NCBI GenBank assembly: GCA_961205875.1 | Contig: OY540822.1 | Span: 126,501 to 190,500 of the forward strand | DNA from: Sialis fuliginosa | Taxonomy: Eukaryota; Arthropoda; Insecta; Megaloptera; Sialidae | Length of the DNA stretch: 64,000 nt | Reading direction: 5' to 3' | Part shown: positions 4,867-62,996 of the stretch, one piece after another | How the letters are laid out: each line of letters opens with the position of its first letter | How positions within the stretch are numbered: the stretch's first letter is position 1 | Position numbers and translations under genes: made by a program | The notes under the pieces: model-generated | Database searches by the model: none | Told to the model about the DNA's origin: nothing | What the model saw: the letters and a program-made list of their open reading frames with translations, nothing else

Positions 4867-5235
4867 ACAAAAAGATTCGTTGATATCCAAACAGTAAGAT
4901 TAAGTGAATCGCGAAAAAACAGCCTTAACAACGGTTTATTGTTAAAAGTTGAAAGTTCGGAAATTGTTAATACAAAACAGTATTAGTGAAGAGATTCAGT
5001 AAATCAGCTGTCGATCAATCAACAACGACCTAGTGAACCAGTCGAAAACTCTACTGGGTGAATTCTAATTCTTCGCACTAAGAACCAACGTACTCCACAA
5101 GAATATTTGGTGACGAATCCGGAATAGGAGAACACTATTCAACCCGAAGGAACATCGGGCAGGCAGTGGGTTCGGACGATGGTATTCTACATTTGGGCTA
5201 TGTGGTAAGTCTGTATTGATTTTTTTGTTTCGTTC

Positions 5236-9700: not shown

Positions 9701-10319
9701 TTTTCTTAAACAATATAATATTAAACAACATGAGACTACCGCAAAAAGTTCAACTGGTAACTCAGACGTAGAACGATTTCATTCTACGATAACAGAAATC
9801 TATAGGATAATATTTCATAAAGATAAAACAAAATTACCTACAGATATTTTGAATGAATGTTTAATAACTTATAACAATTCAATTCATAGCACAATTAAAC
9901 TAACACCATTCGAAGCGTTAAAAGGTCATATTAACAATTATAATGATTTAAATATAACCAATAATATAACAACCCCACACGATTATTTAAATGATTTAAA
10001 AACCAAGTACGAAAATATAAAACAAATTATTCATGACAGGCAACATAATAAAAAATTGAAAACAATTGAAAAACTAAATAAAAATTTAGAAACCCCATCA
10101 AAATTAAAACCTGATGACGTAGTATATGAAAGAGATAATAAAAGAGAAAAATTAGCTCCTTTATATCAACAACATATAGTTTCAAAAAATAAAAATGTTA
10201 CAGCTCAAACTTTAACTCGTAAAGTACATAAACGTAAGTTAAAACCAAAACGTAAATTTCAGGTTAATGCTGCAAATCGCAGGCAGTCAACGGATGGAAA
10301 TCCACGATCTAACAAGTAG
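6693..10319 (+). CDS. pol: Retroelement Pol polyprotein (protease, RT, RNase H, integrase)
   Basis: Replication polyprotein in the -1 frame relative to gag, open from 6693. Domains in order: aspartic protease with the DTGS motif near 6818; reverse transcriptase with LDLASGFHQI and the catalytic YMDDI box near 8048; RNase H with TDAS near 8490 and the DHKPL segment; integrase with an H-H-C-C zinc region (9300-9425), then a DDE core where the second Asp lies in an NDPGLEF box and the Glu in DVERFHS near 9768. It ends with a basic tail. All domains are uninterrupted. The last 53 bases overlap env. Confidence 0.93.
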   Translation, partial: RKFSENSLTPAVGFLNLDSKLITKLPYIHISNSNGPPLKFLIDTGSCTSFINPKLISEKYIYTVKPITITTVFISKQIDKQTTIDNLIELQNEKPLNFYLFNFHSYFDGLIGSDILRQIKAHIDYGNQKLITDKVCIPILYKPNHTTGILEINPRSKLTINAPVDIENGDIFIPKTNIQPNLFVNEGIYKSKNWQSRIEIVNLNETSKTFMLEQPIKCNNLENCQQINNFDINYTNNVSDSSEIESLIRINHLNSEEKKAIVHICQKFDDIFFKEGQDLSFTNQIKHEIKTTDDTPIYTKSYRYPEIHKNEVRSQIDKLLKQGIIRPSFSPWSSPIWIVPKKLDASGIRKWRLVVDYRKLNEKTIDDRYPLPNITEILDKLGKCIYFSTLDLASGFHQIEVHSKDISKTAFTVDHGHYEYVRMPFGLKNAPSTFQRVMDHVLRELQGKICLVYMDDIIVFSTSLQEHIENLNKIFEKLRSANLKIQLDKSEFLHKEVAFLGHVVTRDGVKPNPDKISAIKKFPIPKTEKQIKSFLGLLGYYRKFIKDFSKLTKPLTECLRKDKQIVLDDRYKQCFENCKQLLCNDPILQYPDFSKEFNLTTDASNFALGGILSQGPIGSDKPICYASRTLTKTEQNYSTIEKELLAIVWATKYFRPYLFGRKFKIITDHKPLTWLFSLKEPNSKLVRWRLKLQEFEFEILYKSGKLNLNADALSRIEINLHSCSSGSSLSNNEDDLDKLTDSNTIHSAQENLNNDIPITEKCINDFKEQIIFTLKEQSQKMTYKVLFETKRRRTFYQKDFSEQDIVNIFKQYVRPNRLFCIFTDDNTFKMVQTVYDKFFSNGRFKIVRSTKLLEDITERDLQDNIISEYHENSNHRGISETFEHLKRQYYFDNMNQKITKIINNCETCQKLKYERHPPKIKFEISETPRAPLEILNIDIFNIHKKNILTIIDKFTKFASAFIIEQRTSLNVVKSLTHFFSQHGLPKLIINDPGLEFTASIYKDFLKQYNIKQHETTAKSSTGNSDVERFHSTITEIYRIIFHKDKTKLPTDILNECLITYNNSIHSTIKLTPFEALKGHINNYNDLNITNNITTPHDYLNDLKTKYENIKQIIHDRQHNKKLKTIEKLNKNLETPSKLKPDDVVYERDNKREKLAPLYQQHIVSKNKNVTAQTLTRKVHKRKLKPKRKFQVNAANRRQSTDGNPRSNK
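6696..6702 (+). promoter_or_regulatory. Candidate -1 ribosomal frameshift site A AAT TTT
   Basis: In the gag frame this heptamer reads A AAT TTT, the X XXY YYZ form of a -1 slippery site. The -1 frame is closed by a stop at 6690-6692 and open from 6693 to 10319, so the site sits just inside the short gag/pol overlap (6693-6738), where a shift is needed. Confidence 0.7.
10255..10263 (+). promoter_or_regulatory. Likely splice acceptor for the env mRNA
   Basis: The sequence aaatttcag ends 3 bases before the env ATG at 10267. In gypsy-type errantiviruses Env is made from a spliced subgenomic RNA; an acceptor placed immediately before the start is consistent with this. No donor was assigned. Confidence 0.5.
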
Positions 10320-11886
10320 TCAAGGTCTATTATCGCTAAAAATAGGCAATGCAAAAATCATAAATGATTACACCAAATTAATTCACATAGTAAATTTGAC
10401 CAAATACGAAGAAAACATAGACATTATAGAATATAACATTAATCGACTCGAACATGAAATCACAACTCGACCATTTTCACTTAATACACAAATTGTCCAT
10501 AATAAATTTGAAAATCTTAAAGAAAAATTAAGATTACTTTTACCACACAAATTAGTCAAACGAGGACTAATAAACGGACTTGGAACAATTATTAAGACAA
10601 TTACAGGTAATATGGATCATAACGATGCAGTAGAAATTAATAGACAAATAGAAACACTAAAACTAAATCAACACGACTTGAATAATGCACTGACAGAACA
10701 ATTAAGTATAAATCAAGAAATGACAAAAAGGTTCAATAATATTACAAACCATATTAATAAACAACAAGTAACCATTGAAAAGTACTTTGATCATTTCCGA
10801 AACGAACTATTAAATAAAATAAATTTTGCAGAAGCACAAGTTATGTATAATCAATATATTGATAAAATTATTTACAATATAGATCTACTTACTATACATC
10901 TTAAAGATATAAGTGAATCTATAGTTTTAGCCAAACTCAATGTAATTCCTAAACAAATATTACATCCGGCGGAATTAAAACAAATCTATCAATATTTTAA
11001 CAATCAAAATATCAATCTAGTTTCTAGTGAACATATATACGAATTATTAGAACTACAAGCATATTACAATCAAACAAATATCATATTTGTAATATTAATT
11101 CCTAATTTCCTTAATGAACAATTTAATTATTATCATATTAGAAACCTACCTATAAACAATACTTATACAATTAAAATTCCTACTCCTTATATTATCTTGA
11201 ACGAGATAAGCTATCAGTATATGACGAAACCATGTAACCTTATAGAGAATCAATATTTCTGTGAAAGTAAACATCTTAAATCGTTAGAAAATGAACATTG
11301 CATTACAAAACTAATACAGAAATCAACAGCTAACTGTTCTCTGATCGAAACCGAAGATGTGGAATTTATAGAAACAATCGAACAAAACTATTTACTGATT
11401 GCAACACAGCACCCCCAAGAAATTCAAACGACATGTGAAATGGAACAAAAGACCATCATAGGAAATTTATTAATACATTTCCAAAACTGCAGTATAGAAA
11501 TTAACAACATAAAATATACAAGCAAATCAACACTTTCGTGGGACGACATTTTTATCATACCTACTGTTTTTTCGCAACTTCAAGTAAGAAATATTTCCAA
11601 AACTCTAACTCTACAAAAACTTAACGATTTTCATCAACAAACAAGAAAAGCAATAGAGTTGTTAGAAGTCAGAGAAAATAAAATGAATTATTCTACATAC
11701 ACTATAATTGGGATACTTATTACAATAATAATCACTACAATTATTATTCGAAGAAAACGTAAAACCAAAAATGAAGAAATGAAAAATGAAAATTGTGCAC
11801 CAGTCAGCTATAATGCTTCCACATCGCCTAAAGTTCAATTTCATTGGCCGATGTCTCAGAGTTTGGTGGGAGGAGTCATGAAATGA
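10267..11886 (+). CDS. env: Retroelement envelope-like protein
   Basis: 539-residue Env-like protein that overlaps pol by 53 bases and whose stop lies 13 bases inside the 3' LTR. Visible features: a basic cleavage-like site (KR followed by GLINGLG) about 100 residues in, which resembles the proteolytic site of insect F-type envelope proteins; cysteines in the C-terminal half; several N-x-S/T sites; and one strongly hydrophobic Ile/Thr-rich membrane segment near residues 478-494 (around 11700-11750) followed by a basic cytoplasmic tail. No obvious N-terminal signal peptide is seen in this frame, so the leader may come from an upstream spliced exon. The frame is intact. Confidence 0.85.
   Translation: MLQIAGSQRMEIHDLTSSQGLLSLKIGNAKIINDYTKLIHIVNLTKYEENIDIIEYNINRLEHEITTRPFSLNTQIVHNKFENLKEKLRLLLPHKLVKRGLINGLGTIIKTITGNMDHNDAVEINRQIETLKLNQHDLNNALTEQLSINQEMTKRFNNITNHINKQQVTIEKYFDHFRNELLNKINFAEAQVMYNQYIDKIIYNIDLLTIHLKDISESIVLAKLNVIPKQILHPAELKQIYQYFNNQNINLVSSEHIYELLELQAYYNQTNIIFVILIPNFLNEQFNYYHIRNLPINNTYTIKIPTPYIILNEISYQYMTKPCNLIENQYFCESKHLKSLENEHCITKLIQKSTANCSLIETEDVEFIETIEQNYLLIATQHPQEIQTTCEMEQKTIIGNLLIHFQNCSIEINNIKYTSKSTLSWDDIFIIPTVFSQLQVRNISKTLTLQKLNDFHQQTRKAIELLEVRENKMNYSTYTIIGILITIIITTIIIRRKRKTKNEEMKNENCAPVSYNASTSPKVQFHWPMSQSLVGGVMK
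11862..11873 (+). promoter_or_regulatory. Polypurine-rich tract
   Basis: The GGTGGGAGG-containing stretch just before the 3' LTR fits the purine tract that primes plus-strand synthesis. It lies inside the env coding region. Confidence 0.6.
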
Positions 11887-30677: not shown

Positions 30678-31072
30678 ATATCTGTATTTTCTATACGTGG
30701 CATATATTAATAATTTTATTGGACCTCAAGATACAAAAACCGACTGCGTCACTGAATATTGTAAGTACAAAACATAAAATTATTTTTAATATATACATTT
30801 TTTATAATGATATAGATTTTTTTATGATAAAAATGTTTGTATAAAATAAAACAATTATTTTTCCAGATCCTTGTGTTACTGTGAACTGTATTATAATTGT
30901 ATTAAAGTTATTTTGGCCCCCAAGATTCATCAAGTGATTGTGTCCCTGAATACTTTAGGTATAAATAATTTTTAAAATATATTATTTTACAATACTTAAA
31001 TTATTTTATTTATAATACATTTCTTATTTTTACAGATCATTGTTTTCACACTGAACGTGCCCCTTTATAGAA
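30678..31072 (+). pseudogene. Decayed small cysteine-containing exon set
   Basis: Three acceptor-led segments (30678-30761, 30867-30958, 31036-31072). Two of them share a coding-like block: GPQDTKTDCVTEY and GPQDSSSDCVPEY, differing largely at synonymous or conservative positions, which implies past selection on protein. The second segment starts with a PCVTVNC-like stretch. Frames do not join cleanly, and the last segment stops after about 11 codons. It looks like the degenerate 3' part of a small secreted, cysteine-containing protein gene with a tandemly duplicated exon. A related copy lies at 34912-35122. Confidence 0.35.
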
Positions 31073-31371
31073 TTTAAATAAACATATTGGCCTTCAGAAA
31101 CTAGAAACTTACTGCTTTCTGTATATCGTATGTAGAACACTTTTATATTATACAATATCTATATCTGTAAAACGAGAAGTCATGAGTGACTGACTCATCA
31201 ACGCCCAGCTCAAACCTCTGGGCCTAGAAACGTAAAAACTTAAGAGGTGTTTTCCTTTTATCAAAAAAACACTCACTAAGAGATTTTTTAAATACAGCCC
31301 TTAAGTGTTGGGGGGGGGGGGGGTAAACCTTTTTTTATTTTACTGCGTTTATCTTTATAGCTGCTTACATT

Positions 31372-34911: not shown

Positions 34912-35122
34912 TAGATCCGTGTGTTACTGTCAACTGTGTGTGCCCTATTATAATTGTATTTAAATTATTTTCCTGAATACTTTAGGTACAAATCTTTATA
35001 AATATTTTGTTAAATATGTAAAGTATTATTTATTATTTTACAATACTTAAATTATTTTGTTTATAATACATTTTTATTTTTACAGATTATTGTTTTTATA
35101 CTGAACGTGCTCCTTTATAGAA
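34912..35122 (+). pseudogene. Second copy of the small cysteine exon set
   Basis: The DPCVTVNCVCP-coding segment and the downstream (H/Y)CF-x-TERAPL-stop segment match those at 30867-31072, with the same spacing, polyadenylation-like aataaac and downstream gtagaacacttttatattat. The two loci are a segmental duplication about 4 kb apart; both look decayed. Confidence 0.35.
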
Positions 35123-35594
35123 TTTAAATAAACATATTGGCCTTCAGGAACTAAAAACTTGCTGCACCCTGTATATTGTATGTAGAACACTTTTATATTA
35201 TACAATATATGTATAAAGTGATGTATAAAGTGAGAGGTCCTGAGTGACTGACTCATCAACGCCCAGCTCAAACCTCTGGACCTAGAAACGTTAAATTTAG
35301 AGTTATTTTCCTTTTATCATATTATAAGCACTAACTAAGAAAGGATTTTTTGAAATTCAACCCTTAAGGGGGGAAGTGTAAAATCTTTTTAGTAAAATAT
35401 AAAAATAATATCATATTAATTAAACATTCGTCTGATGTAAAGAAAAACATAAGTAATAACCAATCGTATAGAGTACAAAATATAGGATGTTATTAAAAAG
35501 TCTATGACATAATATCTTTTAAAAACTACCCATAAAATATTGTTTCATAAAGTTGACATTTTCAGAAGTAGAAACCAAGAATACACAATACAAA
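35123..35594. other. Upstream region of the NLR-like gene
   Basis: AT-rich, ends in the 5' untranslated sequence. No clear TATA-initiator pair was identified. Confidence 0.35.
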
Positions 35595-35634
35595 ATGGCA
35601 GACTCCAGTAAAAATAATGCAGCTTTTTCCTCAG
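35595..35634 (+). CDS. Exon 1 of the NLR-like gene
   Basis: ATG then 12 codons (MADSSKNNAAFSS) and one base before a consensus donor gtgagt. The ATG is preceded by caaa, a good insect start context. Confidence 0.65.
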
Positions 35635-38600
35635 GTGAGTCATGTTTAAATACTCTACATAATCTCTACGCGCGCTATAATTAATTACAGACGCGTATCC
35701 AGGATTTTTCAAAACTATAAACTATAAAACATTCATTAAACAAATAAGTTAATGGCAAAATGTTCTCACAAAAAGTAATATCTTATTAATATTAGATTTT
35801 TGTCCGGTATTATCAACCAATATAATGCTTCTTGAGCGCTAAATGCTCTTTTATAGTAGATTTGGTATATTACCAACGTTATTTTTACCAGGTTGGTCTA
35901 TTTAAATTGAGACAAGCAAAAGGATTTTCAGGGAAAATGTTTGGTACAAAAGTTTTAGTGTTAAGAGGAAAACCGATGAAGGTAAAAATTTTGCCCTTGA
36001 GATGAGGTTTGAAGGTAATTTTTTGAGGTCAATTTCATTTTTTAATAGAAATCTAATTCTTGTTTTGTAGATTCCTATTCTAAAGAAATATGGAAACAAC
36101 TTTTCTATATTTTTTTTTCAAAAACCTCAATTTTAACGTAAAAGGCTAATTAACGGAGTTTGAGTCACTACTTTCTATCAACTCCACGATATAATCTTAA
36201 ATATTCATTTAGTATAAAACATTATTTACCTGTATGCTAATTGAATCTTATCCATAATAAATATATTACAGATGATTTAACTTCACGACTGTTGGATTAT
36301 CTTCTGCACATAGACAGTTGTAAAGGTCACGAATGCACTTTGCCTTCTTGCAAGACTATCAAACAGGCCTTAAGTCACATGAGGACATGCACTTTAACAG
36401 ATGACTGTACATTTCTACATTGTTATCCATTGAGTCAGCTTATCAACCATTGGAGACATAGCAGGCCTACTAACAAGTGCCAACAGTGTTTTCCAACAAT
36501 AAGTAATAATACAAACGGTGAGTGTATCAATATCCTATAGGCACATTCTGGATTAATTTAAATTATGCCCGGCATTATAAAGGAGCTAGCAAGTACTTTC
36601 AAATGAGATATCAAACTTATATGACAGTTCTTTTGGAGTTTGTTAAAGACTTTGACAAGTTTCGCGCACGCGTTGTAGGTAAATAGCAACGGTATTAAAA
36701 CAGTGGTGATATGAAAATTATTTTGTACGGTGAAAGATGCCAACTGTGTTACAATTAGTTGAAGTGTTACTGCTCTAAATTCCATAGCTAATCCATAGAT
36801 ACTAGTACAGAATTAATACCCCATTTGAAAGTGCTTGCTTCGCTAGCAAATTTTGCTAGCTCCTTTATAATACCGGACATTAAAATATCAAATAGTCTGA
36901 CAAATTCTTAATTTTTTCGAGACGATAATTTTAGTTATTAGTAGAAAATTGAATTTCCAATCAAAATGGAAGGTTTAAAAAAATTATGTAGGAAATATTT
37001 AAAACAAATCAAACGTCAAATTAAAAGGATTAAAAAATACCACATCTATTTATTTGGAACAGAAGTCATATTTATGTCTAAAATTACTGGACTATTAACA
37101 CCAGATAACTGAATTTATAACAAAAGTATTTTCTTAGGAAACAGCAATTTGTCAACAACCTAGAACTCTATAATTATCAGAATTTATATATTCTTCAACT
37201 GCTGTAATTTTGAAATAAAATTTCAGATGATAAAGTAGCGAGATTTTCGAAATCACAAGGTGGCCCTCAACGCCCTCAACAGAGAAAACAAAAGAGTGGA
37301 GATCCCAAAAACCCAATAACCTCATCCGGTAAGTTATGTTAAATTTTATTTTGAAAAATTGCAATCAAATTTTCAAATTGTGACTGTGTTCCAACCTTGA
37401 TTGACCCCACGTTTTGTCAATTTGCTAATTTAGATACAAAATACATATACAGGAATTCCCTCTTCAAAAGACCAGAAGAACTCAAACAAATGTAACCAAA
37501 GAACAAACCTTTACGAACGAAAACGAAATTTAGAAAATTCAATAAAATATTCTAAGACTCGAAAATTGCCATTGTAATTGTTCGGTGTTCCATAATTAAT
37601 TTTGGCTAATACGGAGAGTCTGGGGGTCCTCTGTCAGATTTGTGAAAAATCACGTATATAGTTATTCAGAATAGGGTTGACGCGCATGCGTGACTAGATC
37701 AGTGTTAACAACTTTTATAAATCACGCATTTTATAAAACGACTGACCACGTTTAGCTGTGTTATATTTAATTATTTAGTTTAAGTTAGAGTAGTCCAGAT
37801 AGATTGGTTCGTTTTCAGGTAGAGTTAGGTTAGGTTTATGAATTTCTGTTTATGCACTAAATAATATATTAACATAGATACAACATACTCTACTCTATTC
37901 TAACACATCAACACGTGACTTTTAGAGTTTTTGACAGAGGACCCCCAGAGTCTCCGTATTTACCTTAATTTTTTTCTACTTTGTGCTAAGTATCATAGAT
38001 AATTATGACGTTTAGAAATTATTTTTGTGACTTAACAGAATCAATGATCTTATTAACAAATTTTACTCGGGTATTTTCTGAAACTTGTCTCTCTTTCTAC
38101 CCTTACAGAAATTAAAAAAAAAATTGCGTTATATTACCGTTTCACTAAAAATTCGAGATTTCAATCTTTTTAAATATTTTATGTTGAGTATTATAAAAAA
38201 TTAGCTCTAGAGATGTCCGAGAGCCAATTCTTTATATAATACCGGACATTATTTATTTATTTATTTACGACTACTTTTACTATAATTGGAGAGCTTTGAG
38301 TTTTTCCCATTTTTCTCTAGAAATATTTTGATTACTTAATTTTGACAATTGTACTGAATATACCTAAATATTTTTTTTCCCGGGGAACACTAAAAATGTA
38401 TTATTATTTATTTATTTATTATTATCTTTGTTTTTCCTCTAGTATCATTCTTGAGCAGGGTGCGAAATTATTAACGTAACCATAATTTTATATAATTATT
38501 AAGATATTAAGATAATTATCCTGTTTTTGACTGAAAAAATTGCACTATTATTACATTTATTTAAGCTAGAGACATTATAGTTATATATCACAGTTAGAAT

Positions 38601-41600
38601 ATTTATTACACAGATTCGGTTAAAGAAGAGAACAGAGGCATTGTTGGTAACAAAAGGGGCATTGATTTCCATTACTACACGGTAATGTTGTTGTGTCTCG
38701 AGGGTTACCTTCACAAACTGTCCAATCCCGACTACAACTACAGAGTTCATCAAGAAGATGCTGAGGCTGGTAAATTCGACGACATTGTTTATGAGTATAA
38801 AGATAACAAAGACGAACAATGGACACGTTTACTTATTCAGTGCAAGAACAAAAAATCATCAGACAATTTTATTAAAACAAGTAATCTTCTTAGCGATCAT
38901 AAAAAAGAAACTTTCAGTTTGGTTAAATTTATGAACTCGTCAAAAAAAATCGAAAATACTGAAAATTGTCATTTCATCATCTATACGAATATTTCTTTTG
39001 AGTTGGAAGAAAACGGATACTTGAGGCAGTGGTACAAGAATGCAGATACAACAGTTAGTCTTTTACCTTCCGAAATAAATTGTTTCCCTATATTCGGCAA
39101 AGGTTCTCAGTACAAATTTGACAATGAAATAAATATTCCAATATTTTACGAACATACAAACATTGTCAAAGAAGACTGGGAGACATTTTTAAACAAACTT
39201 GTGTTTGTTGTTGTTGATCAACCGAACCTTGAAGACAGTAAGCGTATCATTGAAGAGAAAATAGAATGCATTTTACCCAAATCTACAGAAAAAATATGGA
39301 ATATATTGTACGAGATGATCAATCGTTCTTTGTTTGATAATAAAATAATAACTTCACAAGAAATATCAACGTTATTTGAAACAATGGAAAAAAATATTCA
39401 AGAAGGTCATGATAATAAGTACGAAGAAGGCGAATTAGAATTTATTTGCAATTTACCAGAAGTAAATCAATTCTTGACTTCGGAATTCACAACACTGCCT
39501 ATTATAACCACGATTCCTGTACTTACACTTCATAAAGTATGCAAAATAATAAAGAAACTGAGAGAAAAGAAACTTGCCAGAAAATACACAATGAAACATG
39601 TGTACAGTGTGAAGGATAAAAAAAACGCATCATTACCTAGCCTTGTTATAATTGTTATTAAAGACAGTGATCAATTGGATCTATTTAAAATTATGAAAAA
39701 TGTTGATATTAAATACATAGTTATTATTTTAAACGATCAATATTTGCTTGAATTTCAAAATAGTTCTGACCCGTATAAAGACGAAGACCATAGGTTTAAC
39801 TTATTAACTGTTAAATCTCAACAAGATGTCTTAGATAAAAAATGCATTTCATTGAACGGGCAGAAATTTAGTTTCAGCGAGATTCTTGATATAAATTCTA
39901 GCGGTTTAACACAACAACAGGTAGAAAAGTTGAACAGCGTACTTACAGAAGACATTTTAATTTATTTCTTCAATGAAAAAAAAAAAATATTTAAATTAAG
40001 TTTTAACCATGAAGGAATAAATAAATTGGGAATTTATATCAACAGGCGACTGCGTTGTTCAGAACACAGTAAAATAGAAAAATTTAAAGAGTTATATAAA
40101 ACTAACAATGTCACAATTACAGAAGATGAACTGTGTGATGTAGATGCTAATACAGTGTTGATTTCCGACAAGCCTGGAATGGGGAAATCTACACTTATTA
40201 GCAACATGTTCAAAGAGATACAGAAGAAACACCCGGCACATATTATAATCCGATTAAATTTCAACGACCAAACAAATTCATTTAGTAAAGAAGACCTAAA
40301 TTTCAATAGTTTTGAAAAAACGGTAGATTTTATAATAAATGAATTACTGACAAAAGCTAAACTTTCTAAATTATCACAAAATGTACTTCATTATATATTT
40401 CAAAATCAATATAAAATATTTCTCTTTCTCGATGGTTTTGATGAAATTTGCCCGGATTATAATGATATCGTAATTAATTTTATCCAATCCGTAATAAAAT
40501 ATACAAGTTGCAAACTGTTTGTGACGACCAGGCCAGGACAAACAGACACATTAGAAAAAGTTTTGTCAACATTTGCGCTGTCAATACAACCTTTCACGAA
40601 AAAAGACATACATTTATACTTGGAACAAACACTGGGATGTAATTATATAAATAACAATTCATTGTTAAAGAAAATTAATACATATTCACAATTACTTGGT
40701 ATTCCTCTATTACTCAAAATCGTAACGGAAACATATTCTAAGAATGATGACAAATTAAATACTGATGCAATATTTAATTTGTCTCTATTATTCAAGACAT
40801 TTATCAATAAGAAATTTGTAATTTACTCAGCTGAAAAGAAGAACCAAGACAATACAAAAACCGCAAGTCAAGAAGATAATAAAAGGATACAGGAAGGTTA
40901 TGAAGAAGAACACGAACAGTTAGCTCTAAGACTACTTTTTGGTGAAAAAATGAAAACTCAGAAACAAATAAATTATGAACAAATAACAAAAATAGGTATA
41001 ATTACACAAGTAAATGATCAAAGAATAGAATTCATTCACAGAACCTTTGCCGAGTACTTTGTAACTTCGTACGTTCAGAAAAACTTCAACGAAGACAGAG
41101 TTATTAAGTTATTATTGACAGACGTGTTAGTTAAAAATGATTTAACAGCACTAAGACAAATCATAAACAACTACATAGGAGAGAAGATAAGTGATGTTAA
41201 AACAATAGACAAATACAGACAATATGTTAATAAGTATTATAAAACTAAAAAAGTAAATAATTCTGTATTGAGTATTTTACCCACAGCTGTGGATGAGAAC
41301 AACTCAGAAATAGCAACTTTTATATTAGAGTGTTTTAAACAAAATCAAAATATGTTAGACAGCATTATGTCATATGGAAATAAAACAGCACTATACACTG
41401 CAATTATGTTAAATAAGATAGAAATAGCAAAACAAATAATCAATTATTGTGATAAAAATAAAATGAATAAAGAATGTAAAGCATACAAGTTTATATTTGG
41501 TGGTGAAGGTGATCAGTACGGTAGGACAGCTCTACAGTGGGCTGCTAGAGAGGGTCATACAGAGGTAGTGAGTTTGTTAATAGATAAAGGCGCAAGTGTA

Positions 41601-42299
41601 GACATAGCTAATACAATCGGCGAGACAGCTCTATACATGGCTGTTAGTAAGGGTCACACAGAGGTGGTGAGTTTGTTATTATATAAAGGCGCAAGTGTGG
41701 ACATAGCTAATACAAGCGGCGAGACAGCTCTATACATGGCTGCTGAATGGGGTCGGACATAGGTGGTGAGTTTGTTATTAGATATAGGCGCAAGTGTAGA
41801 CATAGGTGATAGACACGGCTGGACAGCTCTACACAGAGCTGCTAGTGGAGGTCACACAGAGGTGGTGAGATTGTTAATAGATAAAGGCGCAAGTGTAGAC
41901 ATAGCTAATACATACGGCAAGACAGCTCTATACATGGCTGCTAGAGAAGGTCACACAGAGGTGGTGAGTTTGTTACTAGATAAAGGCGCAAGTGTAGACA
42001 TAGCTGATACATACGGCGAGATAGCTCTACACATGGCTGCTAGATGGGGTCGCACAGAGGTGGTGAGTTTGTTAATAGATAATGGAGCAAGTGTGGACAG
42101 AGCTAATACAGACGGCTGGACAGCTCTACACTACGCTGCTAGTGAGGGTAACACAGATACAATGCAACAGTTAATAGATCACGGTGCAGATGTTAACATT
42201 ACTGATAACACAGGTCGCACAGTTCTACAAATGTCAATACAAAGGAATGACACCAGAACAGTTGAAGTATTCCAAACCAGAACTAAAACATCACAATAA
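35595..42299 (+). CDS. TAZ zinc finger - NACHT ATPase - ankyrin protein (NLR-like), with internal TAG
   Basis: Exons 35595-35634, 36272-36517, 37227-37328 and 38614-42299; every junction is phase 1 and the frames join exactly, giving 1,357 codons before TAA. Residues 14-95: TAZ1-like zinc finger (CTLPSCKTIKQALSHMRTC) as in CBP/p300. About 130-210: RG-x-DF start, FDDIV and later QCKNK, resembling a PD-(D/E)XK-type nuclease core (tentative). About 648-656: Walker A DKPGMGKST; about 733-740: Walker B LFLDGFDE, as in NACHT STAND ATPases. About 1030-1340: some nine ankyrin repeats. An in-frame TAG (41760-41762, where sister repeats read GAG) would end the protein at 1,178 residues; it may be a null allele, a pseudogenising change or a base error. 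Predicted cytosolic sensor. Confidence 0.75.
36272..36517 (+). CDS. Exon 2: TAZ-type zinc finger
   Basis: 246 bases, phase 1 to phase 1, ending at gtgagt. Encodes H/C-rich motifs in the TAZ order: H-x3-C-x4-C-x4-C, H-x3-C-x5-C-x4-C, then H followed by CQQC. The tail of the third motif reads HWRHS where CBP TAZ1 has Cys, so one zinc ligand may be lost. TAZ1 in CBP/p300 binds transcription-factor activation domains. Confidence 0.7.
36566..36879. mobile_element. Harbinger-type MITE in intron 2, subfamily B
   Basis: Ends TGCCCGGCATTATAAAGGAG and its inverse, flanked by TTA (36563-36565, 36880-36882). Interior matches 61883-62208 (atatgacagttcttttggag; caagtttcgcgcacgcgttg). Confidence 0.85.
37227..37328 (+). 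CDS. Exon 3: basic linker of the NLR-like gene
   Basis: 102 bases, phase 1 to phase 1, bounded by tttcag and gtaagt. Encodes a Gln/Arg/Lys/Pro-rich linker (GGPQRPQQRKQKSGD), probably disordered. Confidence 0.6.
37453..37577 (+). CDS. Possible alternative last exon (short TAZ-only isoform)
   Basis: An acceptor (atatacag) leads to 41 open codons in the correct phase from exon 3, basic and Asn/Lys-rich, ending TAA. If used, it would give a product of about 171 residues with the TAZ finger but no NACHT or ankyrins. It could also be a chance open frame. Confidence 0.35.
37608..37961. mobile_element. TIR MITE in intron 3
   Basis: aatacggagagtctgggggt and the inverted acccccagagtctccgtatt at the ends, continuing to cctctgtca / tgacagagg. 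About 354 bp, non-coding. Confidence 0.75.
38182..38248. mobile_element. Minimal 67-bp Harbinger-type MITE
   Basis: Flanked by TTA (38179-38181, 38249-38251); ends tgttgagtattataaa and ttataataccggaca. Almost only termini remain. Confidence 0.6.
38614..42299 (+). CDS. Exon 4: nuclease-like, NACHT and ankyrin domains
   Basis: Single large exon after acceptor ttattacacag; the phase matches exon 3 and the frame is open to the TAG at 41760 and again from 41763 to TAA at 42297-42299. The ankyrin part (41510-42250) consists of near-identical 99-bp units (ggtcacacagaggtggtgag, gcaagtgtagacatagct), showing recent duplication or gene conversion. Last repeats (GNTDTMQQLIDHGADVN) are more diverged, as expected for a capping repeat. 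AATAAA overlaps the stop at 42296. Confidence 0.8.
41512..42200 (+). repeat. 99-bp tandem units encoding ankyrin repeats
   Basis: Seven consecutive 33-codon units with high DNA identity, plus a partial eighth. The third carries the GAG to TAG change. Confidence 0.85.
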
Positions 42300-43183: not shown

Positions 43184-44934
43184 CCCTAACGGATTCGGGT
43201 ACACGCGTATACTGTGTGTATACGCGCTGTATACACACAGTATATGGCGTGTAAACGCTGTATGCGCATAAAGTCTGTGTAACAACCGTGTAAACACCCG
43301 GTATACGGCGTGTGCTTGGGAAAATTATATACGCGCGTTACACTGTGTATAGTGCGGTATACACGCGATTCATACGCAGTAAACTCTGAGTAAACACTTG
43401 TGTTATACAGTGTTTACGCGTGTAAACACTGAGTAAAAACTCGGTAAAAACACAATGTACTGGGTATACCAAGAAGTTATTCTTCGTGTAAATTCGGTGT
43501 ATATGCGAAGTTTATACGCTATAAAAAACACAAACCGCAAGTTACCTCTCGCTAGGGAATCATGTTTGTGGTTTTTATAAAGGCTATAAATGTTACTCTT
43601 GTTTTTTTAAACGAAAAGTAGGGCTGTAAGTATAAATACTGTTAACATACACGGTTTATTCGACGTAATCACTGTGTAAATTCTATTAGTTACACGTCTA
43701 CTACACGTATGAAAACGCGATACATTCGAATAATCACTGTGTAAACTGCGTGTAAATTCTATAAGTTACACGTATGAAAACGCGATATATTCGAATAATC
43801 ACTGTGTAAACTGCGTGTAAATTCTATAAGTTACACGTATGAAAACGCGATACATTCGAATAATCACTGTGTAAACTGCTTGTAAATTCTATAAGTTACA
43901 CGTATGAAAACGCGATACATTCGAATAATCACTGTGTAAACTGCGTGTAAATTCTATAAGTTACACGTATGAAAACGCGATACATTCGAATAATCACTGT
44001 GTAAACTGCGTGTAAATTCTATAAGTTACACGTATGAAAACGCGATACATTCGAATAATCACTGTGTAAACTGCGTGTAAATTCTATAAGTTACACGTAT
44101 GAAAACGCGATACATTCGAATAATCACTGTGTAAACTGCGTGTAAATTCTATAAGTTACACGTATGAAAACGCGATACATTCGAATAATCACTGTGTAAA
44201 CTGCGTGTAAATTCTATAAGTTACACGTATGAAAACGCGATACATTCGAATAATCACTGTGTAAACTGCGTGTAAATTCTATAAGTTACACGTATGAAAA
44301 CGCGATACATTCGAATAATCACTGTGTAAACTGCGTGTAAATTCTATAAGTTACACGTATGAAAACGCGATACATTCGAATAATCACTGTGTAAACTGCG
44401 TGTAAATTCTATAAGTTACACGTATGAAAACGCGATACATTCGAATAATCACTGTGTAAACTGCGTGTAAATTCTATAAGTTACACGTATGAAAACGCGA
44501 TACATTTGAATAATCACTGTGTAAACTGCGTGTAAATTCTATAAGTTACACGTATGAAAACGCGATACATTCGAATAATCACTGTGTAAACTGCGTGTAA
44601 ATTCTATAAGTTACACGTATGAAAACGCGATACATTCGAATAATCACTGTGTAAACTGCGTGTAAATTCTATAAGTTACACGTATGAAAACGCGATACAT
44701 TCGAATAATCACTGTGTAAACTGCGTGTAAATTCTATAAGTTACACGTATGAAAACGCGATACATTCGGAATAATCACCGTGTAAACGGCGTGTATACAT
44801 CGCATAAACGCCGTATAAAAAATTCCCAAGGACACGTCATATACACGGTGACTACACCCCATAAAAGCGCAATAATCAGCGTGTATACTGCGTGTATACC
44901 GCGTGTAAACCGTGTATGATCAAAACCGTTAGGG
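43184..44934. mobile_element. TIR element carrying a 65-bp satellite
   Basis: Ends CCCTAACGG and CCGTTAGGG. Both flanks inside are rich in gtgtatac/gcgtgtaaac words that are largely alternating purine-pyrimidine, and the centre is a tandem array. No transposase. Target duplication not clear. Confidence 0.7.
43727..44766 (+). repeat. 65-bp satellite, 16 copies
   Basis: Exactly 16 units of 65 bp, each starting cgaataatcactgtgtaaac and ending cgcgatacatt. Copies differ by only one or two bases (for example tgcttg in the third, tttgaa in one late unit). A diverged partial unit precedes the array (about 43650-43726). Confidence 0.95.
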
Positions 44935-52381: not shown

Positions 52382-52483
52382 ATCCTCGATATATTGGTTT
52401 TTATATAAGTGGGGGATTGTTGATATAATTCAACTATAATGAAATTTTATTTTATAATTATAAAGTAAAGTTAGGTAGTTATT
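52382..52483 (+). promoter_or_regulatory. 5' UTR exon of small gene 3
   Basis: A strong acceptor (tttattttatttcag, ending 52381) precedes a leader with TATATAAG near 52404; either this is the promoter, or a spliced leader from upstream (TTTATAAG near 52202) is used. Confidence 0.4.
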
Positions 52484-52984
52484 ATGGATCAGACACTTGG
52501 TTCATTGTTGTCGGAATATAGCGTATTACCTATCTTAAAATATGAAGTGCGGTTATTCTATAAAGATTTGAAAATGTGTATTCGTCGGAATGATTACAAT
52601 ACTGTGAAGGAAATTTTATCAGATCGCTCTGGAATAATAGATGAAAGTTTTATAATATATGCTTCTCATTGGAACACCTCTAGAGATATTTTTGTTTTAT
52701 TATATGAATCTTTACAACTGAAAGAATCCGCCAAAATTTTGAAAATACTATGTAGTTGTTTGAAAATTACATTGTTGTATGCTCGTCCCGAGATCTTAAA
52801 AGTTATTTTCAACATAGCTAGTGAAAATAATGTAACGTTAATATTTGACCCTGTTAAGAACGATAAAGATAAGATTGCTTGGAAATGGATTCTGGAAAAT
52901 ATTGAAAATTCTAAAAACAACCGAAGAATTGGAATACGATGCTGTGGTGATTCCTCGCCATGGCCTAGTGATTATATACATGGC
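52484..52984 (+). CDS. Unrecognised protein, gene 3 of cluster, C-terminus cut by an insertion
   Basis: 167-residue frame from MDQTLGSLLSEYSVLP. It is helical in character, with a CIRRNDYNTVKEIL segment that resembles a degenerate ankyrin-like helix pair and later ARPEILKVIFNIASENN of the same style; this is weak and may only mean alpha-solenoid. The frame ends two codons after the start of a TIR element whose left end is at 52982, so the original C-terminus is probably lost. Like genes 1 and 2 it has a short leader and an intron acceptor before the ATG. Family unknown. Confidence 0.55.
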
Positions 52985-53758
52985 TGATTCTCAAAAAAAG
53001 TAGAAAAATGATTTTGTTTTATTGTGTTTTTTTTTTTTAATAATGTACAATTTCTTTCGTAAATATAATAAAACATAGGGTAATTTTCTGAAGGGTTATA
53101 GTGGTCCCCAATATTTTTGACTTTAAAGGGGGTTAAAACAAAAATTCAAAAGTGAGGATATGATAGCTTAGTGTATTAGTGAGGGAATGATCACTTTGTG
53201 AGGGAATGACGAGCGAAAATGTAAATTTGGATAATAATACTTTAAAACAATTTCAACACTCAGCCCTTTCGCCATATTTATTTTTTAATGTCAGTATTGC
53301 CACATTATAAAAACAATAACACTGCGTTCAGATAGATTTAAAATTACGGTCTAATTTCACTGTTATAGAAATTGTGAGGGAATGATTCGTTTTTTAAGGA
53401 CATACTTGTAAATTTATTTTCTGTTTTTTTCTGTTTGTGTTTTACTTACTATTGTACATTTTTAAATAGAGAATATTGTTATAAATGAATAAATAATAAG
53501 TTATTAAACACATTCTAGAAAACTTTTCGAAACAAATTAGAAATGTATTTAAATTTGGTGGTTGGGACACAGTGATGATTTTTGAGGTATAAATTTTAAT
53601 ATATTTTGACAATTTATAATAACTGAAATAAAATGAATATACAATTTGGTACACCTAGTGATGTAGTTTCATAAGAGAATCTCCTTAACTTGAATTTTCG
53701 ATCTCGTTTTATAGAAATCAAAAAGGACAACAATTTAGATTTTTTTTGAGAATCAGCC
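52982..53758. mobile_element. TIR element inserted at the end of gene 3
   Basis: Ends GGCTGATTCTCAAAAAA and the inverse, flanked by ACAT on both sides (52978-52981, 53759-53762). 777 bp. Contains three agggaatga words but no transposase. A 4-bp duplication does not identify the superfamily by itself. Confidence 0.65.
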
Positions 53759-57362: not shown

Positions 57363-60300
57363 ATGATTCATGTGAAACAAGAAGATATACAAGAAGAAAG
57401 CGATCTTCTTCAAGAAGTTGAAATTTATGATGAATTTCAAATATATTACAAGCAAGAATACCAGGTAATTAAATACAGTGTTCGATATTGAATAATCAGA
57501 GTAATATTACTATAATAAGGTTCATGGGCGTAGCACGGATTTTGTTCAGAGAGGGGCAAAAATTTTTTTTTTGAAACCGATTGGTCGGTGTGTTTTGCCT
57601 AGGACCCCGAGGTAATGAGAGAGGGGTGAGCAAAAAAATCTCTCACATTATTATGGTAACCTTACCTAAAAGTTTTATAAAAAAAATTTTTAATAAAAAT
57701 ATTTTCAATGGGCCTCAAATTTTTAGCTTCTGGGACCTCGAAATGTGTAAGAACGGCTCCGATAAATGGCCATTAATGTAAACATTTGGTAAATCCTTTT
57801 TTTTTCTTAAATTTAATTCTATCGTTTCGTTGCAACTTGGAACTTTGGCTCGTGAAAATCCGTGATTTTCATTAGCTTAATAAATTAATTTTTTGGTGTG
57901 TTCTTGATTATTATCGAGGAATTGCAAAAGAGCTATGAAAAAATTAACATTTTCATTATTTATTATATCTCTTGATAGGTGCGCAAAAAGTAACAATGAA
58001 AAGTCATTCTTTTTTCATTTCTTCTTTTATTTTCGCCACATTTTTTTCAATCAATTAAATTTATATGTATGTGCATATCTTTTTGAAGACATAATCCTCT
58101 ACAAAAATGTACTCTACGTTGCTATTTTGGCACCCCCCCCCTGCCCCGCCCTGGCTACTCCCATGATAAGGTTATGTATTGATTGGTAATGAAATGTTTG
58201 ACATGTTACGCGCATGCGCGAATGTAAAAGTAAGAAAAGACAGCAGTTCCAAAACAATTGTATTAAAAGAAATTTTCTTTTTATTATATAAATAAATTTA
58301 ATTTAGAATTTAGATGCATTTTAAAAACAATACTGTTTGACTTATTTTTAGGGTTCCGAAGAAACCCTATTAATCTCTCTTTGTCGTCCGTCCGTCCTTT
58401 TCACTCAAAGCTAAATAGCTCGTAAACTATATAAGCTAGAAACTTGAAATTTTTACTGAACATGTAAAATGACACCCTCTAGTAAAATATGTACAAATTT
58501 ATTAAATAAATAATTTTTCGGGGGGGGGGGGGGGGGGGGCAATAAGCTAGGTAAAAAAAATATTTTTTTTATACCAAGGCATGTGGCAAGTTAAAATGTA
58601 TAACCAAACAAGCGGAATGTGACTCTTTTTCTATTTTTTTTCTAAATCGAAAATTGTGCCTGTAGGGGGCTTTAAAGAAAATCCAAAAAAACAAAAAAAT
58701 TATATACCAAGACGTGTGGTATGTCAAAATGTACATCTCTAACTCTGTAACTACTGGCTCAAAAAAACTGAAAAAAATTTGGTAACGAGGCTTTGGTGAG
58801 ACTACCAACGACAAATACTAAAATCAACATTATAATTTTTAATTTTGGAATTATAGGGAGGGGCGTCATAGAATTTTGTTATTTTGATATCTAGGCATGT
58901 GGTATGTCAAAATATAGATCTCAATTAGTAGAACTTGACACTTTTTTATATTTTAACATTAACTTAAAATTGCAGCTGTAAAAGGTTCCAAACATTTCAC
59001 GTAGTACGTACTTCGGAACCCTTATGGCATACATTATTTTTAGACATATAGTTCGATATTATCAAAATTAATATTCTAAAATGGCCAAAAGACTTCCATT
59101 TAAATGCTTCATTTTTGTGCAGTAACTTTACCATCACATGGATTTAAACATTTTTTTGACGTTAATTTGAATTCAGAATATTAGAAACCGTAGGTAAAGG
59201 TGAATGAAAATGTAAAAAAGTAATATAAAATAATTTGGGTTGCTAAAACGATAAATAACATGATATTTTGTTAAGTATAAAAGGTATTGAAAATGAGTAT
59301 CTTTGAACATTATCTCAAAATTCTATTCATATTCACGTAAAATCGTCAAATGCTCGTTTTATCGACTTATCCATTGTTGTTTTGCAGGGGGACTTGCAAG
59401 TTAAAGAAGAAAATCTGCTAGACACCGACATTAAAAATGAGCCAAAAGAAAACGAAGATATTAGCGAAGAAACAAAATACAGTGATGAATATTTAAATGC
59501 AAATAATGGAAATAAAATACAACATTCTGACCAACGACCTTTTAAATGTAACCAATGTGAATTCAGTTGTAAAACAACAGAAGTTTTGAGTAGACATAAA
59601 TTAACACATTCTGAACAACGCCCTTTTAAATGCGACCAATGTGAATTTAGTTGTAAACAAATAGGAATTTTGAGTAGACATAAATTAAAACATTCTGATC
59701 AACGCCCTTTTAAATGCGACCAATGTGAATTTAGTTGTAAACAAATACGATTTTTGAGTACACATAAATTAAAACATTCTAACGAACGTCCTTTTAAATG
59801 TAATCATTGTGAATATAGATGTAAACTAATAAGTAGATTGACATCTCATAAATTAACACATTCTGATCAACGACCTTTTAAATGCGACCAATGTGAATTT
59901 AGTTGTAAACAAATAGGAATTTTGAGTAGACATAAATTAAAACATTCTGATCAACGCCCTTTTAAATGCGACCAATGTGAATTTAGTTGTAAACAAATAC
60001 GATTTTTGAGTACACATAAATTAAAACATTCTAACGAACGTCCTTTTAAATGTAATCATTGTGAATATAGATGTAAACTAATAAGTAGATTGACATCTCA
60101 TAAATTAACACATTCTGATCAACGACCTTTTAAATGCGACCAATGTGAATACAGTTGTAAACAAAAAAGTAGTTTGAAATATCATAAATTAACACATTCT
60201 GATCAACGACCTTTTAAATGCGACCAATGTGAATTTAGTTGTAAACTAAAATCTGGTTTATATGATCATAAGTCAACACATTCTAACCAACGTCCTTTTA

Positions 60301-61762
60301 AATGTAATCATTGTGAATATAGATGTAAACTAATAAGTAGTTTGAATAGACATAAATTAACACATTCTGATCAACGACCTTTTAAATGCGACCAATGTGA
60401 ATACAGTTGTAAACAAAAATGTAGTTTGAAATATCATAAATTAACACATTCTGATCAACGACCTTTTAAATGCGACCAATGTGAATTTAGTTGTAAACAA
60501 ATAGGAATTTTGAGTAGACATAAATTAAAACATTCTGATCAACGCCCTTTTAAATGCGACCAATGTGAATTTAGTTGTAAACAAATACGATTTTTGAGTA
60601 CACATAAATTAAAACATTCTAACGAACGTCCTTTTAAATGTAATCATTGTGAATATAGATGTAAACTAATAAGTAGATTGACATCTCATAAATTAACACA
60701 TTCTGATCAACGACCTTTTAAATGCGACCAATGTGAATACAGTTGTAAACAAAAAAGTAGTTTGAAATATCATAAATTAACACATTCTGATCAACGACCT
60801 TTTAAATGCGACCAATGTGAATTTAGTTGTAAACTAAAATCTGGTTTATATGATCATAAGTCAACACATTCTAACCAACGTCCTTTTAAATGTAATCATT
60901 GTGAATATAGATGTAAACTAATAAGTAGATTGACATCTCATAAATTAACACATTCTGATCAACGACCTTTTAAATGCGACCAATGTGAATACAGTTGTAA
61001 ACAAAAATGTAGTTTGAAATATCATAAATTAACACATTCTGATCAATGACCTTTTAAATGCGACCAATGTGAATTTAGTTGTAAACAAATAGGAATTTTG
61101 AGTAGACATAAATTAAAACATTCTGATCAACGCCCTTTTAAATGCGACCAATGTGAATTTAGTTGTAAACAAATACGATTTTTGAGTACACATAAATTAA
61201 AACATTCTAACGAACGTCCTTTTAAATGTAATCATTGTGAATATAGATGTAAACTAATAAGTAGATTGACATCTCATAAATTAACACATTCTGATCAATG
61301 ACCTTTTAAATGCGACCAATGTGAATACAGTTGTAAACAAAAAAGTAGTTTGAAATCTCATAAATTAACACATTCTGATCAACGACCTTTTAAATGCGAC
61401 CAATGTGAATACAGTTGTAAACTAAAATGTAGTTTGGAATCTCATAAATTAACACATTCTGATCAACGCCCTTTGTAAATATGTCCAATGTGAATACAGT
61501 TGTAAACTAAAATGTAGTTTGGAATCTCATAAATTAACACATTCTGATCAACGCCCTTTGTAAATATGACCAATGTGAATACAGTTGTAAACTAAAATGT
61601 AGTTTGGAATCTCATAAATTAACACATTCTGATCAACGACCTTTTAAATGCGACCTATGTGAATATAGTTGTAAACGAAAAAAATGCTTAGATTTACATA
61701 AATTAACACATCCCAATAATGTTTTGAGTGAATGGTTTAGACAATCGATCGAAAAAGAATAG
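57363..61762 (+). CDS. C2H2 zinc-finger protein with expanded finger array and broken 3' tail
   Basis: Exon 1 57363-57464 (34 codons) joins in phase 0 to 59388 onward; the first stop is TGA 61047-61049, giving 587 residues. The N-terminal part is acidic with VKQE, VKEE and IKNEP motifs, typical SUMO-acceptor-like sites of insect finger proteins. Then come C-x2-C-x12-H-x3-H fingers of 28 codons linked by HSDQRPFKC: 18 before the stop. Further fingers continue beyond it, interrupted by a second TGA (61299-61301) and two +1 frameshifts, to a natural-looking C-terminus and TAG at 61760-61762, followed by AATAAA near 61782. Predicted nuclear DNA-binding protein. The stop CGA to TGA is a transition. 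Confidence 0.75.
57523..58165. mobile_element. TIR element with 8-bp duplication in the zinc-finger intron
   Basis: Ends CATGGGCGTAGC and GCTACTCCCATG, flanked by perfect 8-bp repeats ATAAGGTT (57515-57522, 58166-58173). hAT-like by duplication length. 643 bp; short frames inside are not genes. A related end (atgggcgtcgcatgg) is at about 63369. Confidence 0.82.
58346..59023. repeat. Interspersed repeat with GGGTTCCGAAG ends
   Basis: Begins tagggttccgaagaaaccct and ends cttcggaaccct. Contains the cgtccgtccgtcc stretch often seen in insect dispersed repeats and a run of about 19 G (58521-58539). Located in the zinc-finger intron. Confidence 0.65.
59548..61720 (+). repeat. 84-bp finger units in a 588-bp higher-order repeat
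   Basis: Finger DNA units of 84 bp. A block of seven fingers repeats with an exact period of 588 bp: the aaataggaat word of one finger type is at 59911, 60499 and 61087. An earlier partial block starts at 59659. Confidence 0.92.
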
Positions 61763-61882: not shown

Positions 61883-62208
61883 TGTCCGGTATCATAAAGG
61901 ACCTAACAAATTTGTTAGCTAACAAACACTTTCAACTGAGATATCAAACTTATATGACAGTTCTTTTGGAGTTTGTTGATGACTTTGACAAGTTTCGCGC
62001 ACGCGTTGAAGGTAAATACGAACGGTATTAAAACAGTGGTGATGTTATGAAAATTATTTTGTACGGTCAAAGATGCCAACTGTGTTACAATTAGTTGAAG
62101 TGTCACTGCTCTAAATTCCATAACTAATCCATAGATACTAGTACAGTATTAATACCCCATTTGAATGTAATTGTTAGCTAACAAATTTTGTTTTTATAAT
62201 ACCGGGCA
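61883..62208. mobile_element. Harbinger-type MITE, subfamily B
   Basis: TGTCCGGTATCATAAAGG and its inverse, flanked by TAA (61880-61882, 62209-62211). Close relative of 36566-36879. Confidence 0.85.
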
Positions 62209-62211
62209 TAA

Positions 62212-62996
62212 ATGTAGTTTAATAATAATACAAATTGAACGAAAACAACAATTAAACGTGTGAAAATTGACAGTTATAAATTGTTAAAGAAGAAAATAAT
62301 TGGAAAATTATCAAATTTTGTATAAACATCAGGTACTTACATGTAATGTTTATTTTCTATAAAACCATTTAATATTTTTGGTTGAGGCATACTGGTATAC
62401 AACTATTGTAAGTTGTAACGACCTATAACTTATTGTTACCAAAAAAATCAATATTAATAATTAGAATTATTTGAAACTTTGTCTTTATGATTTTTTTTCT
62501 ATGTGATTTAATGTGATTAATATTACTTATTGTTAGTAAATAAATGTCAATATGTATGGCAGATAATATTATATCAAATTAATAATCTGCCGAAAGTAAA
62601 TTTCTGTGATGTATTCTGTGGGCTTTAATTGTACCCTCCTTAAGGAATGATAAAAAGATAAAATTCTATTTTATCCAAATTATAGTGTTTATTTAGTAAT
62701 GGGGGTCTACGACAAAAAACTGATAGGTCTACAGAAAAAACTCTGTACCAAAAATGGTTCGTTTTTAAATTAGGTCAAACCAATATTAATCAAAATTTAC
62801 AATTGATATTTTTTATATAAATAAATATAGGTATATACAATAAATAAATATAAAGTAAAAATTTAATAAAATTATTATATTTATATAGCTTAACCCTTTG
62901 GACGCGTAACACGAAAAAAAATATGCTCTAAAAAATGCAGTTTTGCCACCAAAAATAAAATGTTCCAAAATTTTTTTTTATTATGTACTTAATGTA
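62212..62996. other. Intergenic AT-rich sequence
   Basis: No gene recognised; the right edge is the direct repeat of the next element. Confidence 0.4.

Follow-up and report, generated by a model that had tools for sequence, protein, structure and literature searches.

How does a zinc finger of the CBP/p300 TAZ1 type come to stand at the head of an NLR-like gene, and what might it do there? The question is raised by a gene on the plus strand of a 64,000-nt stretch of the Sialis fuliginosa genome (contig OY540822.1, positions 126,501 to 190,500; hereafter the window, within which all coordinates are given unless a contig is named), where an initial annotation had joined four exons at 35595-42299 into a TAZ1-like finger, a nuclease-like domain, a NACHT ATPase and ankyrin repeats. 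Here we place this gene, with near certainty as to both membership and architecture, in a family of six copies, whose finger derives from the TAZ1 exon of CBP as judged from its symmetry, borders and identity. Our best reading, to which we assign a probability of about 45%, is that the family encodes animal NLR-like (STAND) sensor-nucleases with an integrated host domain, the finger acting as bait and the nuclease-like domain as executioner.

A six-copy family with one domain order

A profile search for zf-TAZ across the 392 Mb genome (20 contigs), in which all eight candidates were scored and counts are lower bounds, returned at least eight matches. Two of these, lying 16 kb apart on contig C5, fit CBP itself, one as TAZ1 and the other as TAZ2 behind a ZZ-like finger, as judged by eye. 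The remaining six TAZ exons are all open and are all followed, on the same strand and in the same order, by a nuclease-NACHT-ankyrin exon: copy A (C9, 158 kb), B (C11, 163 kb), C (C14, 5.82 Mb), D (C9, 196 kb), E (C14, 1.26 Mb) and O, the window copy. Four are open to their end (A, 1323 aa; B, 1221 aa; D, 1484 aa; E, 1223 aa); in copy C the frame of exon 4 breaks after 768 codons, and the window copy carries a stop codon, such that two of the six are disrupted. The claim of a single gene with TAZ ahead of NACHT and ankyrin is thus borne out by six copies in the same order, four of them open throughout.

In the window, the gene comprises exons at 35595-35634, 36272-36517, 37227-37328 and 38614-42299, separated by GT..AG introns, all in phase 1 and mutually in frame. 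Exon 1, supported by its donor and frame, encodes the start codon and MADSSKNNAAFSS and ends in a phase-1 donor (CAG/GTGAGT) matching the consensus at 9 of 9 positions. Counterparts in A, B, D and E make this exon (MADxxxxNxAFSS, 40 nt, phase 1) and its 5' flank common to five of the six copies; for copy C there is only a 37-nt candidate, whose DNA shows no similarity. Among eight start-to-donor candidates scoring at least 7 between 33000 and 38613, the sole 9/9 was the one at 35595, conserved at the four other copies, and the alternative first exons were rejected. Exon 2 (246 nt, symmetric 1-1) holds the TAZ1-like finger, with its Pfam match at 36286-36489, and exon 3 (102 nt, symmetric 1-1) a short charged linker, for which counterparts exist at B, D and E and none was found at C; copy A has two exon-3-like stretches, which its gene model omits. 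The exons, phase and frame given by the initial annotation therefore stand, but it missed a break, namely an in-frame TAG at 41760-41762 (codon 1179, in the third 99-bp ankyrin unit). With this stop, the frame as assembled ends at 1178 aa and exon 4 at 41762, encompassing the nuclease-like domain, a spacer, NACHT and the start of the ankyrin array; an open ankyrin continuation of 178 codons follows at 41763-42299. As a family member, the window copy is probably either truncated or dying.

It is highly improbable that the fusion is an annotation artefact in which the TAZ exon belongs to another gene. Such a reading could draw on the fact that the gene model was built from sequence alone and on the acceptors: all three end in CAG, but their pyrimidine tracts are poor (6, 5 and 7 of 13), while the donors reach 9, 8 and 8 of 9 positions of a simple consensus. 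At copy A, moreover, the exon 4 open frame extends back across the acceptor to an intronic ATG. Against this, the same order in all six copies is too consistent for chance and speaks strongly against the TAZ exon being a separate gene; furthermore, exon 4 of the window has no ATG before the conserved glycine at aa 145, which lies upstream of the first methionine of its open frame, and an upstream coding exon is therefore required.

Several repeats lie in or around the window gene. A miniature inverted-repeat transposable element-like repeat of 300 bp occupies part of intron 2 (36584-36883) and has a 90% identical copy 25 kb away (61917-62212), and a repeat just 5' of exon 1 (35028-35368) has an 85% identical copy 4 kb upstream (30977-31305). 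A 65-bp satellite of 16.8 copies with 99% matches (43702-44795) begins 1.4 kb downstream of the gene.

Origin, exchange and selection of the TAZ exon

The finger was named TAZ1-like in the initial annotation, and profile and PDB searches agree. The zf-TAZ profile matches aa 19-86 of the window protein at 5.6e-11, above the Pfam cut-off (5.2e-10 in the genome search), and the best PDB relatives are CBP/p300 TAZ1 (1.6e-7), followed by TAZ2 chains over a shorter stretch (1.1e-6). In the PDB, the finger of copy A matches CBP TAZ1 at 1.4e-17, while TAZ2 chains are absent from its hits at E<=0.01. Identity to the TAZ1 of the genome's own CBP reaches 60% in A and 58% in B, with 44% in D, E and O and 41% in C, compared with 26-35% to its own TAZ2 (26% for copy A, 31% for the window copy). 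The CBP TAZ1 exon (303 nt) is likewise symmetric 1-1, and its borders (acag/CTGAT...CCAAACG/gtaagt) are closely alike to those of copy A (gcag/CCGAT...ACAAACG/gtgagt). Symmetry, matching borders and 58-60% identity in two copies together form a signature of exon shuffling, and establish at the level of sequence that the fused finger derives from CBP TAZ1. Nine residues between zinc ligands 2 and 3 of CBP TAZ1 are missing from all six fusion fingers; this shared absence suggests a single capture, two captures being possible. At what we take to be the ligand positions of TAZ1 (three HCCC sites), copies A and B keep 12 of 12 and copies C, D, E and the window copy 11 of 12, the window copy having a serine at what is presumably the second ligand of site 3.

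The TAZ exon appears to be a mobile part of these genes. The TAZ tree pairs B with A (99/96) and unites C with D, E and O (100/99). A tree built from the initial 360 aa of exon 4, which cover the nuclease region, pairs B with D (98/99) and leaves C as the most divergent copy; it carries a long-branch warning for A and C. The DNA of B shows the same conflict, matching A at 92.7% identity over the 715 bp surrounding TAZ and D at 95.6% identity over 4009 bp including exon 4. The conflicting trees and the DNA of B thus indicate that a TAZ cassette moved between copies at B, and it probably did so at C as well. It follows that the putative bait can change independently of the body of the protein.

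The surroundings of the copies hint at how the finger was acquired. For four of the six, a contig start is no more than 200 kb away, and the CBP gene occupies 41-57 kb of C5. Among five contig starts read, those of C9 and C5 begin with (CCTAA)n and that of C14 has (CCTAA)n after N, while those of C11 and C1 are N with no such array within 6 kb. Subtelomeric ectopic recombination is thus a plausible, if putative, route of TAZ capture. In the same genome, 65 matches resolve into about 23 nuclease/NACHT loci, a lower bound from 44 of 508 candidates scored; six carry TAZ and about 17 do not. Upstream of three of the latter (L029, L030 and L031; C8, 34 kb; C9, 129 kb; C10, 1.164 Mb), no match to exon 1 or to any of the TAZ exons was found in stretches that are possibly too short and whose open frames (at least 70 aa) were judged by eye; the same three loci retain an exon-3 match.

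These positions and arrays, together with two disrupted copies and the roughly 17 loci lacking TAZ, could also be explained if the fusion were a by-product of subtelomeric recombination, the finger having no selected role and the family acting, if at all, via its other domains. We consider this quite unlikely, as all six TAZ frames are open, their zinc ligands are complete or one short, and the ratio of nonsynonymous to synonymous substitution rates (dN/dS) is below 1 in all 15 pairs of copies, ranging from 0.32 to 0.72.

Purifying selection of this kind is also what a conserved host ligand predicts, and it brings in a different role for the finger, that of a signalling adaptor. Here TAZ would dock host NF-kB, STAT or HIF-like activation domains, and the NACHT protein would sense, sequester or be recruited by them in stress or infection. 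Indeed, PMC3760798 describes CBP TAZ1 as docking the activation domains of RelA, HIF-1a, CITED2 and STAT2. The two TAZ types of the family are 42-47% identical, however, which is more divergence than a fixed host ligand suggests, and the exchange of TAZ between copies is left unexplained; we therefore regard an adaptor role as unlikely. A bait role, for its part, fits the origin of the exon in host CBP TAZ1. Pathogen interference nearby is exemplified by a Toxoplasma protein that, according to PMC9279507, binds STAT1 and blocks CBP/p300 recruitment; the same source has the STAT1 activation domain preferring TAZ2, so this example does not directly involve TAZ1.

Nuclease-like domain, sensors and a possible mechanism

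Behind the finger lies a Cap4/LmuA-like PD-(D/E)XK-type domain (38640-39035, aa 139-270), with conserved D185 and D186 (38778-38783) and Q205-x-K207 (38838-38846). These four residues do not vary across any of the 29 rows of one alignment (A2) and are present in at least 90% of 32 rows in another (A1). AlphaFold2 models of the domain (mean pLDDT 76.2 and 73.6) show an alpha-beta-beta-beta-alpha-beta core with D..(E/Q)xK, and their fold matches, which include LmuA, Avs3, Cap4 and Avs4, are middling, with Foldseek E above 0.001. A profile of the domain (23 rows) searched against PDB sequences at E<=10 found two Cap4 chains alone, the best at 7.8e-4; the lysine of QxK aligns with Cap4 Lys 74, and the match to 7yia, a K74A chain, is weaker (0.025 vs 7.8e-4). 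Additionally, the LmuA model matches five of the 23 homologue rows (best 3.9e-6; the window row is not among them) and CBASS endonuclease models match some homologues. The domain thus bears a moderate resemblance to bacterial Cap4/LmuA-type nucleases and may act as one, which upholds to the same moderate degree the earlier comparison with bacterial antiviral STAND proteins.

An alternative compatible with any reading of TAZ is that the domain is dead as a nuclease and serves as a DNA-binding or assembly module or in other signalling. The middling folds would suit this, as would the Pfam results: the families matched by the window protein at E<=1 include TAZ, NACHT and ankyrin but no nuclease, and no nuclease family is present among those displayed for its relatives (25 of 98). 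On the other hand, a dead module sits poorly with four invariant residues and with the Lys 74 correspondence and its lower-scoring mutant chain. Selection speaks against it as well, in that dN/dS of the domain is 0.06-0.32 in five of the six measurable pairs and 0.86 in one (B-D, ten changes), the synonymous rate being saturated in the other nine of 15. We therefore consider loss of nuclease function, too, to be unlikely.

The two remaining modules are as first described. The NACHT ATPase (40152-40631, aa 643-802) matches Pfam at 2.1e-11, above the cut-off, and contains Walker A (GMGKST, 40176-40193) and Walker B (LFLDGFDE, 40422-40445) motifs that the other five copies retain with conservative changes. 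The ankyrin region upstream of the stop (41286-41759) matches Pfam Ank families, with Ank_2 at 2.9e-23 in the joined frame, again above the cut-off. Within and beyond it lie 6.4 tandem copies of a 99-bp ankyrin unit (41525-42157). Across six of these units, 47 of 54 changes from the unit consensus are nonsynonymous, counting the stop (p=0.051), and the ratio of nonsynonymous to synonymous differences per site (pN/pS) is 1.49 over 15 pairs of units, an excess that is suggestive only. Ankyrin motif counts before the stop range from 2 to 11 among the window copy and copies A, B, D and E, and since unit number varies in this way the array seems to expand and contract.

These parts can be assembled into a possible mechanism, applying to the four open copies. 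In the resting protein, NACHT would be closed, and the ankyrin array and the TAZ finger would offer surfaces for sensing. The finger would catch a foreign protein that otherwise binds CBP TAZ1 and so shuts down transcription of the NF-kB, STAT or HIF type; ATP-driven assembly would then unite the nuclease domains, which would cut DNA and stop the infection. More tentatively still, we propose that these are animal-evolved NLRs with integrated decoys, in which an Avs-like nuclease-NACHT-ankyrin sensor close to chromosome ends gained the CBP docking exon by shuffling; the exon would then have been copied to six loci and be swapped as a bait cassette, so that pathogen proteins attacking TAZ1 may trigger a suicide nuclease of the anti-phage kind; as a whole this extended account is possible though doubtful. 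A family of this kind would make testable whether animals, too, deploy copied pathogen targets as bait and whether Avs-like nuclease sensors persist in arthropods. It also suggests screening arthropods for pathogen proteins that act on TAZ1 as a host hub.

Elsewhere in the window, a Ty3/Gypsy element (5209-11886) has open frames for gag, pol (protease, reverse transcriptase, RNase H, integrase) and a Gypsy/F-like envelope. A C2H2 zinc-finger frame (59307-61049) lies inside an 84-bp tandem array of 26 units (59307-61711), and a 170-aa open frame (52475-52987) has no Pfam match.

Relation to known systems

A word-based search with 7990 candidates scored yielded 144 homologues at E<=0.001, of which 120 are listed, comprising metagenome proteins and named arthropod proteins (insects, Daphnia, a spider); the nuclease-plus-spacer region alone as query gave a single weak match (P0121, 2.4e-3). 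Members from Blattella, Periplaneta, Schistocerca, Helicoverpa and Schizaphis have the nuclease-like domain with FDD..QxK before NACHT, as here, and such relatives mostly carry ankyrin behind NACHT, with those of Hermetia and Daphnia listing none. Unlike the window family, none of the 120 has TAZ, whether by match to the TAZ query or by PF02135, in a search that is insensitive and possibly leaves out near relatives. The body without TAZ is a widespread unnamed arthropod family; a cricket transcriptome table (PMC7711483) names a 'NACHT and Ankyrin domain protein'. Searched on its own, the TAZ region shared words with nine proteins of similar length, none at E<=1; 38 pattern matches in viral contigs included no relative, and a search of phage DNA found none. 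A full-text literature search found no paper combining a TAZ zinc finger with NACHT, and none containing the term DUF4297, while the three papers retrieved on NACHT, integrated domains and exon shuffling concern, by their titles, fungi (two) and plants (one). The unusual domain order noted at the outset is thus new as far as searched, in a protein whose parts and logic have relatives.

Those relatives fall on several sides. CBP/p300 shares the TAZ1 finger and its exon borders, with up to 60% identity to the genome's own CBP; unlike CBP/p300, the fusion lacks an acetyltransferase, a KIX, a bromodomain and a second TAZ, as judged from Pfam scans of copy A and the window protein. The predicted NACHT model resembles NOD2, NLRC4 and NLRP3, and the fold is common to all, but the window protein has ankyrin where these have leucine-rich repeats, and a nuclease-like domain where their N-terminal module is a CARD or PYD. 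Cap4 of CBASS and LmuA of Lamassu share profile and motif likeness with the nuclease-like domain, which here, unlike there, is joined to NACHT and ankyrins, with no SAVED in the Pfam scan. Bacterial Avs proteins are STAND proteins with a TPR-like (tetratricopeptide repeat) sensor of phage terminase or portal; compared with Avs3 and Avs4, the window family has ankyrin and an extra TAZ, with no TPR in the Pfam scan. A PADLOC scan of the window protein returned no Avs model; given this lack of a match and the different sensor repeats, we do not class it as Avs.

Plant NLRs are an established setting for integrated decoys, as anti-phage defence is for nuclease-STAND sensors. As in an integrated decoy, the extra domain here is homologous to another host protein, by its likeness to the CBP TAZ1 exon. 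Plant NLRs likewise join a domain of another host gene to an NLR-like receptor, and PMC5819176 describes such acquisition and proposes DNA transposition or ectopic recombination for it. The Sialis genes differ in being animal, in their effector and repeats, and in a bait role that we infer; if read correctly, they form an animal family that unites the integrated-decoy and nuclease-STAND designs, one in which the donor exon can be traced and cassettes show signs of having been exchanged.

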